DNA of 64,000 bases, from positions 248,001 through 312,000 of the forward strand of contig NZ_JAJAVC010000006.1 in assembly GCF_020532725.1 (NCBI RefSeq), in the 5' to 3' direction. The stretch comes from Methylobacillus arboreus. GTDB lineage: Bacteria; Pseudomonadota; Gammaproteobacteria; Burkholderiales; Methylophilaceae. Each line of letters starts with the position of its first letter. Position 1 is the stretch's first letter. Under the pieces are notes generated by a model. The model ran no database searches, had not been told where the DNA came from, and saw only the letters and a list, made by a program, of their open reading frames with translations. Shown piece after piece: positions 39,137 through 46,094 of the stretch. The translations under genes were made by a program, and so were the position numbers.

Positions 39137-39517
39137 TTAATTCCAGATATGGCTCAGCAGCTTCCAATGACCGTCAGCCTGCTTTTTGTACAAAAGATGC
39201 ACGTTGCCGCTGAAACTCTGGCGTTGACCTTGCGCATCGACCACGGCAGCGCTCCAATGCCCGCGCTGGAAAGCGAGGTTACCGTCTGCCTCGGCATGGA
39301 TCAAATCCAGCTTGTGGTCGATGATGCCCTGGGCAATGGAAGTCTTCCAGAAACTCAGCAGCGCATCCTTGCCGTTGATCTGCGGTGCGCCGGAAGGCAA
39401 CACGGTCGCTGCATCATCATAAAAGGAGGTTACAAGCGCATGATCCTTGGCATTGAAGGCAGCATCCCAGGCCTGGTTGAGTTGCTCGGCTGTGGCTTTG
39501 AAATCTGAACTCGACAT
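39137..39517 (-). CDS. Cytoplasmic DUF4440/SnoaL-like protein
   Basis: The 126-residue protein fits the NTF2-like fold of DUF4440, a cone-shaped pocket used by steroid isomerases and related small enzymes. It contains LNQAWDAAFNAKDHALVTSFY and a C-terminal SGNVHLLYKKQADGHWKLL. There is no signal peptide. It is a tandem paralogue of the next gene upstream, sharing the FSGN(V/L)H(L/I)LYKKQ and H-x-WN end. No catalytic role can be assigned. Confidence 0.8.
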   Translation of the reverse strand: MSSSDFKATAEQLNQAWDAAFNAKDHALVTSFYDDAATVLPSGAPQINGKDALLSFWKTSIAQGIIDHKLDLIHAEADGNLAFQRGHWSAAVVDAQGQRQSFSGNVHLLYKKQADGHWKLLSHIWN

Positions 39518-39544
39518 CGTTATTCCCTTTGCGTTGTAAAAAGG

Positions 39545-40012
39545 TTAATTCCAGGTATGGGTGAGGATTTTCCAGCTGCCGTCATCCTGCTTTTTGTAGA
39601 GAATGTGCAGGTTGCCACTGAACTGCTGCGGCTCGCTATCCTCGCTCTTGAGTACGGCACTCCATTTGCCGCGCTGGTAAAGCGTGTTGCCGACAATGCC
39701 GGTTTCCACATTCGTGATCTGGTGCTCGGCAAACCCCTTGGCAAACAGGCCGGACCAGAAATCTGCAATCGCCTGGCTGCCAGTCACTTGCTCACCGCCA
39801 GCCGGCAACAGGCTGCCATTGGCATCGTAGTAAGAGCTTAGTGTACCGGCTGAAGCCTGGGCAAAAGCCTCATCCCATGCTGTGTTGAGCTTGCTCACGA
39901 TGGCTTTAGCGTCTTCTTCACTAGGCTTGGCATTGCATTGATAAACGGCAACAGCAGCGATAGCCACCAGTGCCAGCAAAACGACAGCGACGATAACCTT
40001 GCTGATCTTCAT
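39545..40012 (-). CDS. Exported DUF4440/SnoaL-like protein
   Basis: The 155-residue protein is the exported paralogue of the gene downstream. It adds an N-terminal hydrophobic segment (about 5-24, VIVAVVLLALVAIAAVAVYQ) followed by Cys26, which does not match a lipobox well, so it may be membrane-anchored. The NTF2-like domain spans about 35-155 and ends SGNLHILYKKQDDGSWKIL. Having one copy on each side of the inner membrane, beside an exporter, suggests binding or conversion of one compound in both compartments; that is inference. Confidence 0.8.
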   Translation of the reverse strand: MKISKVIVAVVLLALVAIAAVAVYQCNAKPSEEDAKAIVSKLNTAWDEAFAQASAGTLSSYYDANGSLLPAGGEQVTGSQAIADFWSGLFAKGFAEHQITNVETGIVGNTLYQRGKWSAVLKSEDSEPQQFSGNLHILYKKQDDGSWKILTHTWN

Positions 40013-41274: not shown

Positions 41275-43125
41275 TCAGTCCTTGGGCGCGGGAGCTTTGG
41301 TTTGCCCTTCCCAGGCATTGTTATTGAGGCCGGCAACAACCTCTTCCATTTCCCGCGTCAAGGTCCGCTGTAGATCCTGCCGCGTGCGCACGCTATAGGA
41401 AACCACTTTCTGCATGTCGGTGTGGATAGGGTGCAGGCCATGCATCATTTTTTCATCGTTTTGCCTGAACTTCCATGCCGTGCTGTAGGCATGGAAGGCA
41501 CCGTAGCCCATTTCACGCAATGCCTTCTCGCCCAAATGCACGGCGCTGAGAAAAGTCTCCCGCACGCAGTCTATGCCCAGATCCATGTAGTCAAACACAT
41601 AGGTGCGGTTGCGCGCCCGTGCAAGTATCTTGACATCGGGATAATGCTGCCGCACATAACGCGCTGTTTCCAGCGTTTCCTCTGCATTATCTATCGCCAA
41701 TATCAGCAGCTTGGCATGCGCAATGCCGGCAGCCCGCAGCACATCCGGCCGGGTAATATCCCCATAGTAGGCCCGGTAGCCGAAACTGCGCATCAACTCG
41801 ATCTGGTTGGGGTCATGCTCAATCACGGTGGGCACCACGCCGGCACTGGTCAGCAGACGGGTAATGATCTGCCCCACACGGCCAAAACCAGCGACGATCA
41901 CAGGGCGTGCTTCCTCGAATTCGTCATGGTGTCCGTCCTTGCGCCGTTGTTGCAGCAAACGGCGATAGACAAAATGGAAACCCAGCAGCAACAGTGGCGT
42001 TGTCACCATGGACAGCGCCACTACCGAGTTGAGCAAAGCTCCGTGCTCCTGGCTGATGACCTTGGCGTCTACGGCCCCGCTGAAAATGACGAAAGCAAAC
42101 TCGCCCACCTGGGACAATGTGACGGCAAACATCAGGCCGCCGGCATTATCAAGCCGGAACGCCTTGGCAAGGCCGAACAGGAGCACCAGCTTGAACAGGA
42201 CAAAAGCCAGCGCCAAGCCTACGATCAGGCCCGGCTGCTGTAATACCAGGTCCAGATTCACCGACATGCCCACCGAGATAAAAAACAGGCCAAGCAGCAA
42301 GCCCTTGAACGGCTCTATGTCGAGTTCCAGCTCCTGGCGGTATTCCGAGTCGGCCAGCAATACGCCGGCGATAAAGGCGCCCAGCGCCATGGATAATCCA
42401 ACCAGCGTCATGAGGATGGAAACGCCGATGATGAGAAACAGGGAAAAAGCGATGAATATCTCACGCAAACCGGTGTTGGCGATATAACGCAGCACCGGCC
42501 GCAGCAGGTACTGCCCGCCGAGTATCAGGAGTATGACCAGCGACACCGCCTTGAGGATGGCGAGCCAGTCCATATGCACACCGTGCGCGGTATGCGCGCC
42601 CGGGGCAATCACCAACAGCAGGATCATGATCGGGATCACGGCCAGGTCCTGGAACAACAATACAGAAAAAGCGGAACGGCCCGATGGTCGGTTCAATGCG
42701 CCTTGCTCCGCCAGAATCTGCATCGCAATCGCTGTCGATGACATGGCGACTCCCATGCCGACCACCAGCGACAAGCGCCAATCCAGATCAAAAGCAGTGC
42801 CAAGACCATAGACAATCCCGCCGGTCAGCAACACCTGCAACCCGCCCATGCCAAAAATTGGCAGCCGCAGCTTCATGAGCTTGTCAGGCTCGATCTCAAG
42901 GCCGATCAGGAACAGCATCATGACGACGCCGAACTCGGAGAAATGCATCACGGTTTCGGTATCTGCCACCAATCCCAGTCCCCAGGGGCCGATGACGATG
43001 CCTGCAAAGAGGTATCCCAATACGGAGCCCAGCCCGATGCGCCGGAAGATAGGTACCGCCAGGACGGCTGCACCCAGGTAGATAGCGCCTTCCAGCAATA
43101 ATGGGGGAATATGGGCGGTTGCCAT
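41275..43125 (-). CDS. kefC: KefC/KefB-type potassium/proton antiporter
   Basis: The 616-residue protein has about 12 membrane segments of the CPA2 family (about 5-385) and a C-terminal RCK/TrkA-N Rossmann domain (about 405-520) with VIVAGFGRVGQIITRLL. KefC-type antiporters release K+ and acidify the cytoplasm to protect against electrophiles such as methylglyoxal when glutathione adducts appear. The gene overlaps the KefF-like gene upstream (TGATG), matching the known KefF-KefC partnership. In a methylotroph, formaldehyde or methylglyoxal stress is a plausible trigger. Confidence 0.9.
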   Translation of the reverse strand: MATAHIPPLLLEGAIYLGAAVLAVPIFRRIGLGSVLGYLFAGIVIGPWGLGLVADTETVMHFSEFGVVMMLFLIGLEIEPDKLMKLRLPIFGMGGLQVLLTGGIVYGLGTAFDLDWRLSLVVGMGVAMSSTAIAMQILAEQGALNRPSGRSAFSVLLFQDLAVIPIMILLLVIAPGAHTAHGVHMDWLAILKAVSLVILLILGGQYLLRPVLRYIANTGLREIFIAFSLFLIIGVSILMTLVGLSMALGAFIAGVLLADSEYRQELELDIEPFKGLLLGLFFISVGMSVNLDLVLQQPGLIVGLALAFVLFKLVLLFGLAKAFRLDNAGGLMFAVTLSQVGEFAFVIFSGAVDAKVISQEHGALLNSVVALSMVTTPLLLLGFHFVYRRLLQQRRKDGHHDEFEEARPVIVAGFGRVGQIITRLLTSAGVVPTVIEHDPNQIELMRSFGYRAYYGDITRPDVLRAAGIAHAKLLILAIDNAEETLETARYVRQHYPDVKILARARNRTYVFDYMDLGIDCVRETFLSAVHLGEKALREMGYGAFHAYSTAWKFRQNDEKMMHGLHPIHTDMQKVVSYSVRTRQDLQRTLTREMEEVVAGLNNNAWEGQTKAPAPKD

Positions 43126-43739
43126 CAAGAAGCCTCTACGCCGTTTGCCGGCGCCAGGTATTGCGCCTCTTCCGCTTGCAGGCTGTCTACGTCAGGAGGC
43201 CAATCGCCTGCGACAAGATTGTCCAGCCACGCGGCGTAACTGCTAGCCTGTTCGTGCAAAGCGGCGTCACTCAAGGTATCGGCAGCCTGGGTGAGGAAGG
43301 GCTGCAGATAACGCATATTGCATAAGCGTGCAGTCTGCTCAAACGGCCGTAACAGTTCAGCAAGTGAAAAACGATTGTAGCCATTGCGCTGGTAGACACC
43401 TTCCGACCCGCCCGTGGACACGGCTTGCACCCATGCCTTGCCTGTCAGTTTGGAAGTGCTTTCGCCGTAGGCCCAGCCATAACTCAGCACCGTATCAAAC
43501 CAGCTCTTGAGCAAGGCGGGGCAGGAATACCAATACAAGGGGTGCTGGAACACGAGTACATCATGTTCATCCACCAGGGCCTGCTCCTGTTGCACATCGA
43601 TCATCTGCTCGGGATACTGGGCATAAATATCCCTCACCTGAACCCCGGTGCAAAGCGCAGCAGCATCAAGCAAGGCACGGTTTACTCGCGAATTCTCCAG
43701 CATGGGGTGGGCCGCCACGACCAGCACGCGTTTTTTCAA
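43125..43739 (-). CDS. kefF: KefF-like NAD(P)H oxidoreductase, antiporter ancillary subunit
   Basis: The 204-residue flavodoxin-fold protein resembles KefF, the FMN quinone reductase that activates KefC. It has VLVVAAHPMLENSRVNRALL near the start, VFQHPLYWYSCPALLKSWFD near residue 85-104, and the FMN-contact STGGSEGVYQRNGYN. The likely start is TTG 43739, as no in-frame ATG fits. It overlaps kefC and begins 3 bases after the yjbQ stop. A broken relative is at 11222-11389. Confidence 0.9.
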   Translation of the reverse strand: MKKRVLVVAAHPMLENSRVNRALLDAAALCTGVQVRDIYAQYPEQMIDVQQEQALVDEHDVLVFQHPLYWYSCPALLKSWFDTVLSYGWAYGESTSKLTGKAWVQAVSTGGSEGVYQRNGYNRFSLAELLRPFEQTARLCNMRYLQPFLTQAADTLSDAALHEQASSYAAWLDNLVAGDWPPDVDSLQAEEAQYLAPANGVEAS

Positions 43740-43742
43740 TGT

Positions 43743-44162
43743 TCATTCGCCTATGATTTTGACGAGCACACGCTTGTTGCGGCGACCATCGAACTCGCCA
43801 TAGAAAATCTGCTCCCATGGGCCGAAATCCAGATGGCCGTCCGTAATCGCCACCACTACCTCGCGCCCCATGACCTGGCGCTTCATGTGCGCATCGGCAT
43901 TGTCCTCGCCGGTATCGTTGTGACGGTAGTTGCGGATAGGCTCGTGCGGCGCGAGGCGTTCCAGCCATTCGCGATAGTCATGATGCAGGCCCGATTCGTC
44001 ATCATTGATAAAGACACTGGCGGTAATATGCATGGCGTTGACCAGTACGAACCCCTCGCGTACGCCGCTTTCGCGCAAACAGGCTTCCACTTCGTGGGTA
44101 ATATTGATGAATGCCACGCGCGAAGGCGCATTGAACCAAAGTTCTTTACGGTAACTTTTCAT
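43743..44162 (-). CDS. yjbQ: YjbQ family protein (UPF0047)
   Basis: The 139-residue protein is full length for YjbQ, a small trimeric beta-fold family reported to have weak thiamin-phosphate-synthase activity in E. coli. Conserved parts are [22 protein letters not shown] (ending in the His-His-Asp group), [18 protein letters not shown] and [17 protein letters not shown]. It appears to start the yjbQ-kefF-kefC operon. How it relates to K+ efflux is unknown. Confidence 0.92.
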
Positions 44163-44313
44163 GAGTTTTGCCTTAAAAAATGGTAAGCCGGGAAATTATA
44201 GCCTGCCGCTGTTGTCATTGAGTGGCCCGCTAGCATTTTTGCATTTGCACCGGATTTAAGTTAAAACTACTCGATTCCACATTTCCATCCAATCAGAAAA
44301 GTAAGGAGCAACA

Positions 44314-44862
44314 ATGAGTGACAAGATTTTCATGCGCGTCGGTGAAGCACTGGTAGCTGGTGGGCCTCCGGGCACGGCTGCAGAGCCTGAAGTCATCATC
44401 GGCGAAATGGATGGCCCCATGGGCACCGCTTTCGGCACGCTGCTCGGCGACCAGGTCAAGGGCCACTCCCGCGTGCTTGCCATCCTCAATACCGATATCA
44501 TGGTGCGGCCCGCCACCATCATGGTGAGCAAGGTCACGGTCAAGAACGAGCGTTACACCAATATCCTCATGGGCACCGTGCAGGCAGCGATTGCCAACGG
44601 CGTGCTCGATGCCGTACGCAACGGCGACATCCCCAAGGAAAAAGCCAACGACCTCGGCATCATCGTCTCCGTCTGGCTCAACCCGATTGTGGTCGAGCAG
44701 GACAACCTGGACCACAAGATACTGTTCGACATCCATCGCAAAGCCACTGCCAACGCCATCCACAAGGCCATGAGCAACAAGCCCGACATCGACTGGCTGC
44801 TGGAAAACCAGGAAAAAATCGTGCATAAATATTTCCAACTGGGTCTGGACGGCAAAATTTAA
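44314..44862 (+). CDS. Formaldehyde-activating enzyme (Fae) family paralogue
   Basis: Canonical Fae condenses formaldehyde with tetrahydromethanopterin in methylotrophs. This 182-residue protein keeps the family outline (VGEALV at 9-14, IIG at 28-30, LNTDIMVRPATIMVSKVTV near 58-76) but is divergent. Where canonical Fae reads AHIDLIIG, with its catalytic His, this protein has AEPEVIIG, so Glu24 lies at the His position. It also carries an extra C-terminal tail (about 150-182). It is therefore probably a paralogue with another substrate or a sensing role. AAGGAG precedes the ATG, and a long hairpin follows the gene. It is the main evidence for a methylotrophic host. Confidence 0.88.
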   Translation: MSDKIFMRVGEALVAGGPPGTAAEPEVIIGEMDGPMGTAFGTLLGDQVKGHSRVLAILNTDIMVRPATIMVSKVTVKNERYTNILMGTVQAAIANGVLDAVRNGDIPKEKANDLGIIVSVWLNPIVVEQDNLDHKILFDIHRKATANAIHKAMSNKPDIDWLLENQEKIVHKYFQLGLDGKI

Positions 44863-44879
44863 TCTGCTATAACCCATTT

Positions 44880-44916: not shown

Positions 44917-44972
44917 CGTAGTCCCAATCATTTACCATCCGGTATGGCTGGCGCAACAATCAAAGGATGCTC

Positions 44973-46094
44973 ATGGCTGCAGCAAGTTTTCAGGTAGAGC
45001 AGGATGCCCAAGGCAGAAAGCGGATTGCCCTTAGCGGGCAATGGTCGCTGCGTGCCCTGGACAATGACTTTGCCCAGTTGCGCCATGCCCTCAAACCCTA
45101 TTTTTCAGATCCTGCCGCGCAATGGGACCTCACCCGGGTGGAGCAACTGGATACCGCCGGCGCAGCAGTGTTGTGGAACGGCTGGCAAGGCAAGCTGGAA
45201 GAAAAGGTAGCACTCACTGACGAGCAAGCTCAATTATTTGATACCCTGGCGACTATCCAGGCCGAGTCCCCCGAGAAAAAGGCCCCGCGTTTTGACTGGC
45301 TGAAGCTGGTGGCAGCTTCCGGCAAGCTCACGATTTTCATCACCAGCCACGTCGTAGACTTCGTCAAGCTGCTGGGATTGCTGGTGATAGAACTGGGCTA
45401 TCTCTTGCGGCGCCCACAGGATTTCCCCTGGCGCGAATTCAGCGCCAACATTTACAAGAGCGGCGTCACCGCTTTACCAGTCACGGCGTTGCTCGGCTTC
45501 ATGATTGGCATTGCCATGAGCTACCTCATGGCCACCCAGCTACGAACCTTTGGCGCGGACATCTTTATCGTCAATATCCTTGGCCTGGCCATCATCCGCG
45601 AGCTTGGGCCCATTCTGATGGCAGTGCTGGTCGCTGGTCGTTCGGGCTCCTCCATGGCAGCGCAAATAGGCGTCATGCGCGTCACGGAAGAAATTGACGC
45701 GCTTGCCACCATGGGCATTTCCCGCATCCTGCGCGTTGTCCTGCCGAAAGTGTTAGGGCTTACTTTTATCGCGCCGTTCCTGGTCATATGGACCTCGGCC
45801 TGGGGATTGTTTGGCGGCGCCCTGTCTGCCAACCTCGAACTCGGCCTGGGCTTCCGTTTTTTCTTCGACTATCTCGCTACCGTGGTACAACCGGTTAACC
45901 TTACCCTGGGCCTGATCAAGGGCGTCATGTTCGGTTTCATTGTCGCGGTAATGGCCTGTCATTTCGGATTGCGCATCAAGCCCAATACCGAAAGCCTGAG
46001 CCGCAGCACCACCAGTTCCGTGGTCACGGCCATCACCTGTGTCATCCTGATCGATGCCGCCTTCGCCATCCTCACCAGCGGCATAGGGGTATAA
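44973..46094 (+). CDS. MlaE-family ABC permease with N-terminal STAS-like domain
   Basis: The 373-residue inner-membrane protein has an N-terminal STAS-like domain (about 1-95, WDLTRVEQLDTAGAAVLWNGW) fused to an MlaE permease (about 120-373). The permease signature PILMAVLVAGRSGSSMAAQIG and MRVTEEIDALATMGIS is present. I chose ATG 44973, spaced 5 bases from AAGGA; ATG 44967 is an alternative. In E. coli the STAS protein (MlaB) is separate. The operon continues with ATPase, MCE protein and lipoprotein and probably moves phospholipids or other lipids across the envelope. Confidence 0.9.
   Translation: MAAASFQVEQDAQGRKRIALSGQWSLRALDNDFAQLRHALKPYFSDPAAQWDLTRVEQLDTAGAAVLWNGWQGKLEEKVALTDEQAQLFDTLATIQAESPEKKAPRFDWLKLVAASGKLTIFITSHVVDFVKLLGLLVIELGYLLRRPQDFPWREFSANIYKSGVTALPVTALLGFMIGIAMSYLMATQLRTFGADIFIVNILGLAIIRELGPILMAVLVAGRSGSSMAAQIGVMRVTEEIDALATMGISRILRVVLPKVLGLTFIAPFLVIWTSAWGLFGGALSANLELGLGFRFFFDYLATVVQPVNLTLGLIKGVMFGFIVAVMACHFGLRIKPNTESLSRSTTSSVVTAITCVILIDAAFAILTSGIGV

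Follow-up and report, generated by a model that had tools for sequence, protein, structure and literature searches.

The gene fae3 lies on the plus strand at positions 44314..44862 of the window, by which we mean the whole 64-kb stretch of Methylobacillus arboreus DNA that was analysed. The open reading frame starts with an ATG, 5 bases downstream of a ribosome-binding-like AAGGAG (44303..44308, plus strand) that was read from the sequence, and codes for a Fae-family protein of 182 amino acids in which Glu24 replaces His22 of the formaldehyde-activating enzyme (Fae). The product matched the Pfam profile Fae (PF08714) over profile positions 1-158 of 159 with 202.6 bits (E 4.8e-60), above the gathering cut-off, and passed the NCBIfam model TIGR03126 with 127.8 bits at a cut-off of 118.05. 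An AlphaFold2 model of the protein (mean pLDDT 95.6) could be superposed on the solved Fae of M. extorquens (1y5y) over 161 residues with a Z of 25.7 and an rmsd of 1.2 Å; matches of the model to EF-G/EF2 and spliceosome-homologue folds (Z about 8-10) were set aside. The two profile matches and the superposition bear out the family membership proposed in the initial annotation of this DNA. According to Pfam and the model, the 182 residues correspond to the Fae fold alone, with no extra domain. An archaeal-type Fae-Hps fusion was rejected, as the NCBIfam fusion model scored 107 at a cut-off of 274. Weak matches of the product to chorismate mutase (E 0.57 and 0.72) were at chance level, and an antisense open reading frame at 44293-44877 was taken as a shadow of the conserved fae3 frame.

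In the alignment to 1y5y, the segment AHIDLIIG reads AEPEVIIG in the fae3 product, with no gap inside the motif itself. The AEPE replacing AHID is encoded by the codons for Ala23-Glu24-Pro25-Glu26 at 44380..44391 (plus strand), and Glu24 occupies the column of His22, which we take to be the catalytic residue of Fae. The same placement was obtained in an alignment of 238 Fae rows, so that the loss of the canonical active-site His, already remarked upon in the initial annotation, is confirmed. A search for literature naming His22 of the formaldehyde-activating enzyme, conducted outside the subscription journals, found none. The C-terminal extension that had also been noted proved to be slight: 11 residues follow the conserved His171 in the fae3 product, compared to 6 in the 1y5y chain and 5 in the canonical Fae of the same genome, a difference of just about five or six residues.

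Within the window, fae3 is flanked by yjbQ-kef genes and by an mla cluster, which are given here as context only. On one side lie the divergent neighbour yjbQ (UPF0047; 43743..44162, minus strand; PF01894 and TIGR00149), a KefF/KefG-like gene (43125-43739) and a gene for a KefC/KefB-like antiporter (41275..43128, minus strand; Pfam and NCBIfam matches), the latter two scoring under the cut-offs of the NCBIfam Kef models. On the other side, a gene for an MlaE-type permease (44967..46094, plus strand; PF02405) is the first of the Mla/MCE cluster. Elsewhere in the window, at 39137-40012, two adjacent small minus-strand genes (126 and 155 amino acids) resemble each other by eye, as would be expected from a tandem duplication. 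The Kef and MCE genes that had been pointed out beside fae3 are thus present, but no functional signal was found in this arrangement: when up to 10 kb on either side of 80 named Fae3 loci was inspected (these being the best 80 of 538 relatives), kefC was found at 4, yjbQ at 4 and mlaE at 2, both of the latter being Methylobacillus loci, and Kef, YjbQ and Mla were confined to Methylobacillus and Methylovorus. We also sought a stable neighbour by clustering 1,389 open reading frames, those of the window included, from the same 80 loci; the largest family was present at no fewer than 13 of them, all these counts being lower bounds, as some flanks were short and the picking of reading frames recovered fae3 itself in only 74 of the 80 loci. 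The Kef/Mla surroundings are a local feature shared among close relatives.

Across the 238 aligned rows, only three residues occurred at the His22 column, namely His (78 rows), Met (42) and Glu (118). The window protein is included repeatedly (as query and within retrieved loci), and one row was typed in from the 1y5y alignment; identical reading frames were merged, rows shorter than 110 amino acids were excluded, and many of the Glu rows stem from searches directed at the Glu clade. The motif of the Glu rows was AEPE in 116 and SEPE in 2. In a maximum-likelihood tree of 106 representatives, each residue class formed a single clade, with supports of 100/99, 99/98 and 100/97, the last being that of the Glu clade. 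Midpoint rooting joined the Met and Glu clades, and long branches meet at this point. The fae3 product fell outside the His-type clade and into the Glu clade, apart from both canonical Fae and Fae2, which answers the phylogenetic check against the Fae2/Fae3 groups that had been proposed for this gene. Since Glu was found in all 118 rows of its class and these form one clade, the substitution is more than chance. By its distribution, the Glu clade, including the M. arboreus product, fits the Fae3 of the literature. As for the Met clade, plasmid pMaq22A_1p (Methylobacterium aquaticum 22A) yielded a single Fae site, which belongs to this clade, and the available part of PMC7356819 locates fae2 of this strain, Maq22A_1p31155, on that plasmid; because of this, Met at the His22 column most likely marks Fae2. 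Fae3 is an old paralogue of the formaldehyde-activating enzyme and one of two His-less clades. The group as such was already known, and the present analysis adds the residue key, the degree to which Fae3 is conserved and the linkage of its gene.

The 3.05-Mb genome of M. arboreus carries three Fae genes, one of the His type, one of the Glu type and a third with the motif AMPEILIG. The His-type gene, on contig C11, lies about 5 kb from mch and, as read by eye, near a hexulose-phosphate isomerase gene. The fae3 product is therefore distinct from the canonical Fae of the methanopterin pathway, as the initial annotation had supposed. Glu-type Fae3 is patchy in the Methylophilaceae, being present in 57 of 150 genomes, 109 of which bear any Fae and 105 a Fae2-type protein. 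Among its carriers are Methylophilus methylotrophus, two Methylovorus species and a single-contig genome that is presumably Methylotenera versatilis 301. Sampling of the order, the class and the phylum, with M. arboreus itself counted each time, gave Fae3 in 5 of 300 genomes (four of them from the family; the copy in G417 is cut by a contig end), in 23 of 369 (some of only 1.0-1.1 Mb) and in 7 of 398 (with other classes of the phylum represented), respectively, and one further copy was found on a Methylobacterium plasmid. The table of nine Methylophilaceae genomes in the accessible portion of PMC4109929 gives Fae2 in nine and Fae3 in four, and our distribution was compared with it at the level of totals in the wider sample. 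In the draft genome G062, which matches Methylobacillus glycogenes, the fae3 match (contig C27, 191362-191877; L067) contains one TGA; mch of this draft is likewise split in two, and the TGA is possibly a sequencing error.

Canonical Fae was not detected in 7 of the 57 family genomes with Fae3. More generally, it was missing from 16 of the 86 family genomes of at least 90% completeness with any Fae, all 16 of which have Fae2 and Mch; four of them also have Fae3 and 12 have Fae2 only. The number of canonical Fae per genome was obtained by subtracting the matches to the window protein at E 1e-25 or better from all Fae matches, and the absence of canonical Fae was checked on the sequences only for G009, G020, G022 and G029. 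The Fae loci of these four near-complete Methylophilaceae (L259-L263) are all His-less, and Mch is present. The accessible text of PMC4109929 reports one strain without a true Fae, so that genomes with only His-less Fae now extend beyond this single case.

Fae3 turned out to be more conserved than the canonical enzyme. For 19 genomes with both proteins (20 were picked, G771 dropped out, and one canonical copy was used per genome), the mean pairwise identity was 77.3% for Fae3 compared to 68.5% for canonical Fae, and Fae3 had the higher identity in 149 of 171 genome pairs, while the mean identity of Fae3 to canonical Fae within a genome was 28%. To judge from these alignments, the constraint on Fae3 exceeds that on canonical Fae, and Fae3 is not a decayed enzyme; decay to a pseudogene was accordingly rejected for the window copy. 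His-type Fae has 23 conserved polar positions, and the residue is retained at 8 of them in Fae3 and at 12 in Fae2. Residues retained by Fae3 include Glu11, Thr68, Lys73, Gln90, Asp99 and His171. At 11 of the 15 changed positions, a new residue has been fixed in Fae3 to 94% or more, and the fixed residues include Glu24, Glu26, Asp61, Ser72, Tyr81, Ile84, His141 and Arg142. The His residues conserved in the clade are His51, His134, His141 and His171. This pattern suggests a re-specified pocket, and with 15 polar positions changed and 11 of them fixed, an altered function of Fae3 is likely. The change of function suggested in the initial annotation is thus probable, but we found nothing pointing to another aldehyde, which had been offered as the new substrate.

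A different kind of signal came from the genes of the N-methylglutamate (NMG) pathway of methylamine oxidation. Thirty Methylophilaceae genomes have both fae3 and mgsC, and in 17 of them, representing 7 of 11 genera, the two lie within 15 kb of each other, a limit that was chosen once the distances had been seen, and 7 of these 17 genomes belong to one genus; the controls mch and fae2 were within this distance of mgsC in 0 of 30 and 1 of 29 genomes, respectively. In the other 13 genomes, fae3 and mgsC are farther apart or on different contigs. M. arboreus is one of these, its fae3 not being physically linked to NMG genes, with mgsC on contig C15 and fae3 on contig C14. Presence of the two genes is also associated, as mgsC was found in 27 of 48 near-complete family genomes with Fae3 compared to 7 of 38 others (p 0.0004), where genomes of one genus are not independent of each other. 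Outside the family, the set comprised 80 of 84 Fae-matching genomes (G269, G299, G750 and G1097 being left out), and here we found no association of mgsC with Fae3 (10 of 29 Fae3 genomes vs 21 of 51 other Fae-bearing ones, p 0.64): mgsC was missing in 19 of the 29 Fae3 genomes, and linkage was found in one (G931) of the 10 with both. The mgsC matches, taken at E 1e-100, include distant ones (about 50-73% identical), which possibly differ in role.

The linked loci, among which named loci and numbered genomes overlap in part, show several gene orders. In L283 (the same stretch as L215), a divergent gene for an XRE-cupin regulator precedes fae3-mgdB-mgdA-mgdG-gmas-mgsABC, and L194 has the same spacing. 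One to a few genes separate fae3 from the NMG operon in L279, L281 and L285. The Methylovorus loci L183 (the same stretch as L287) and L184 have the order mgd-gmas-mgsABC-amidotransferase-fae3, and both plasmid pLVM1 of Methylobacterium and L288, from G931 in another class, have mgsABC-gmas-fae3. The annotations directly 5' of fae3 on the Methylobacterium plasmid are glutamine amidotransferase, glxC, glutamate-synthase family and glnT, which we read as mgsA-mgsB-mgsC-gmas. The large dehydrogenase subunit, MgdA, contains GCV_T folate-binding domains. Where mgsC occurs without fae3, fae2 lies within 15 kb of mgsC in 4 of 14 genomes. In three genomes of genus g20 that have no fae3 (L289, L290 and L294), the distance from fae2 to mgsC is 3.7-5.4 kb, start to start. 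Some further genes were seen near fae3. A gene for an N-formylglutamate amidohydrolase (PF05013), which may belong to glutamate-bound one-carbon salvage, is present at 4 of the 80 named loci (the best 80 of 538 relatives), and it adjoins fae3 in several family loci, namely L279:13282-14091, L282:3483-4310 and L285:3602-5006, the last with a HutD gene (PF05962). In G931, fae3 of the NMG locus is followed by a GcvT-like gene that stands alone and encodes the folate-binding domain PF01571 (L288:12832-13965). The accessible portions of the literature pairing fae3 with methylglutamate, subscription journals excepted, report no linkage of fae3 to NMG genes.

Published data exist for several genes named fae3, which we took as Glu-type solely by name and distribution. 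According to the available text of PMC5023235, the gene of M. universalis FAM5 is almost 10-fold up on methylamine and its deletion causes no growth defect; on methylamine plates, a fae1 mutant gave revertants and a fae1-fae3 double mutant gave none, and deletion of fae3 did not abolish the growth on methylamine of a fae1 revertant. The authors proposed Fae3 as a candidate methylene-H4F/H4MPT shuttle. For M. alcaliphilum 20Z, the accessible part of PMC11748545 describes no growth defect upon deletion of fae3 and a failure of this gene to complement a fae mutant of M. extorquens, and calls the function of the Fae-like groups beyond the canonical bacterial and archaeal ones unknown. The available sections of PMC3728764 describe moderate transcription of both fae2 and fae3 in three Methylophilaceae, with 'no response to environmental conditions', and expression of the NMG genes of one of the three on methylamine only; the same source proposes sensing, signalling or regulation for Fae homologues. 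In view of these data, the unlinked copy of M. arboreus and the missing association outside the family, Fae3 is not an NMG enzyme in general, and the NMG linkage may be one place where its partner pathway shows.

Under our leading reading, a tentative prediction that could well fail, Fae3 acts at the formaldehyde/methylene-pterin node with its Fae fold intact, but the pocket has been re-tooled to take a different carrier or adduct, folate being the first candidate. Nearly all Fae3 genomes searched also carry mch of the tetrahydromethanopterin pathway. The pocket of Fae lies between subunits, and Fae3 would keep this inter-subunit pocket with a different set of polar residues. The altered pocket would no longer serve formaldehyde and tetrahydromethanopterin; at the same node, Fae3 would deal with a one-carbon unit on a different carrier, most likely by exchanging formaldehyde with tetrahydrofolate (methylene-H4F <-> H4F + formaldehyde) or with an amine adduct. 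In bacteria that use methylamine, Fae3 would then couple the product of N-methylglutamate dehydrogenase, with its folate-binding large subunit, to the formaldehyde pool. A narrower version, which we regard as quite doubtful, predicts that Fae3 is an enzyme specific for tetrahydrofolate, which either activates formaldehyde or splits methylene-H4F, has Glu24 in place of the catalytic His and works for N-methylglutamate dehydrogenase as well as for other one-carbon oxidations. Such an enzyme would catalyse a step that is usually regarded as spontaneous.

It is possible, if rather unlikely, that Fae3 is instead a sensor or regulator, i.e. a Fae ring devoid of catalysis that would bind formaldehyde or a pterin and pass a signal on to its partners. 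The loss of the catalytic His despite very strong sequence conservation, the deletions of genes named fae3 without growth phenotype (in the accessible text of PMC5023235 and PMC11748545) and the variable neighbourhoods, with no stable neighbour at the best 80 of 538 relatives (largest family at least 13 loci), would agree with a sensor, whereas the 182 residues offer no extra domain and the genes adjoining fae3 at the NMG loci examined are mostly for enzymes, the XRE-cupin regulator being encoded by a separate gene. The retained polar residues, the score above the cut-off of the NCBIfam Fae model, the presence of Mch in 34 of 36 Fae3 genomes searched (the two misses being 75-76% complete; the set consisted of 7 of the 57 family genomes with Fae3 and 29, including G417, from the other samples) and the four genomes of at least 90% completeness with Fae2, Fae3 and Mch and no canonical Fae could be explained by a backup or differently regulated isozyme that acts on formaldehyde and tetrahydromethanopterin with Glu24 as acid/base. 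We consider this isozyme unlikely, as the majority of the polar positions conserved in His-type Fae is altered, the M. alcaliphilum gene named fae3, putatively of the Glu type, failed in complementation of M. extorquens (available part of PMC11748545), and the 12 genomes with Fae2 as their only Fae indicate that Fae3 is not needed where canonical Fae is missing. A role as partner subunit, joining canonical Fae or Fae2 in mixed rings and tuning these enzymes, would be in line with the preserved fold and with at least one more Fae match in 36 of the same 36 genomes, but the lack of canonical Fae in part of the Fae3-bearing family genomes and the low identity of the two proteins within a genome make it very improbable.

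A practical outcome of these results is that a key of one residue (His, Met or Glu) sorts Fae proteins into three clades. The automatic label 'formaldehyde-activating enzyme', which a protein receives by passing TIGR03126, may be misleading for Fae3. Methylotroph genomes with mch and only His-less Fae, 16 of 86 in our sample, would escape a pathway marker built on the canonical enzyme, and the methylotrophs with NMG-linked fae3 are the place to seek a fae3 phenotype, which is a testable lead.

Compared to canonical Fae of M. extorquens AM1 (PDB 1y5y/1y60), Fae3 has the same fold over nearly the whole length and the same Pfam family, and the fae3 product is 28-30% identical to the solved chains. 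The six retained residues named above are common to both, whereas His22 and Asp24 of the canonical protein are replaced by Glu and Glu, Asn134-Tyr135 by His-Arg, and QMFGPAQ by ILMGTVQ. With no His22 and a position outside the His-type clade, the fae3 product differs from the canonical enzyme of EC 4.2.1.147. The likeness to the Fae3 of the literature (PMC4109929, PMC3728764, PMC5023235 and PMC11748545, each in its accessible part) is one of distribution, and in this respect we found no difference; none of the sequence records retrieved carries the label fae3, the Methylovorus species sampled here being other than the strain of the paper. Fae2, the Met type, is the other His-less clade and adjoins Fae3 on the midpoint-rooted tree. 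The two have xPE, Gly34-Pro35, Gly37, His51, Val89, Trp121 and Pro124 in common and are about 41% identical within a genome, but Fae2 has Met rather than Glu at the His22 column and, unlike Fae3, keeps Asn134-Tyr135 as in canonical Fae.
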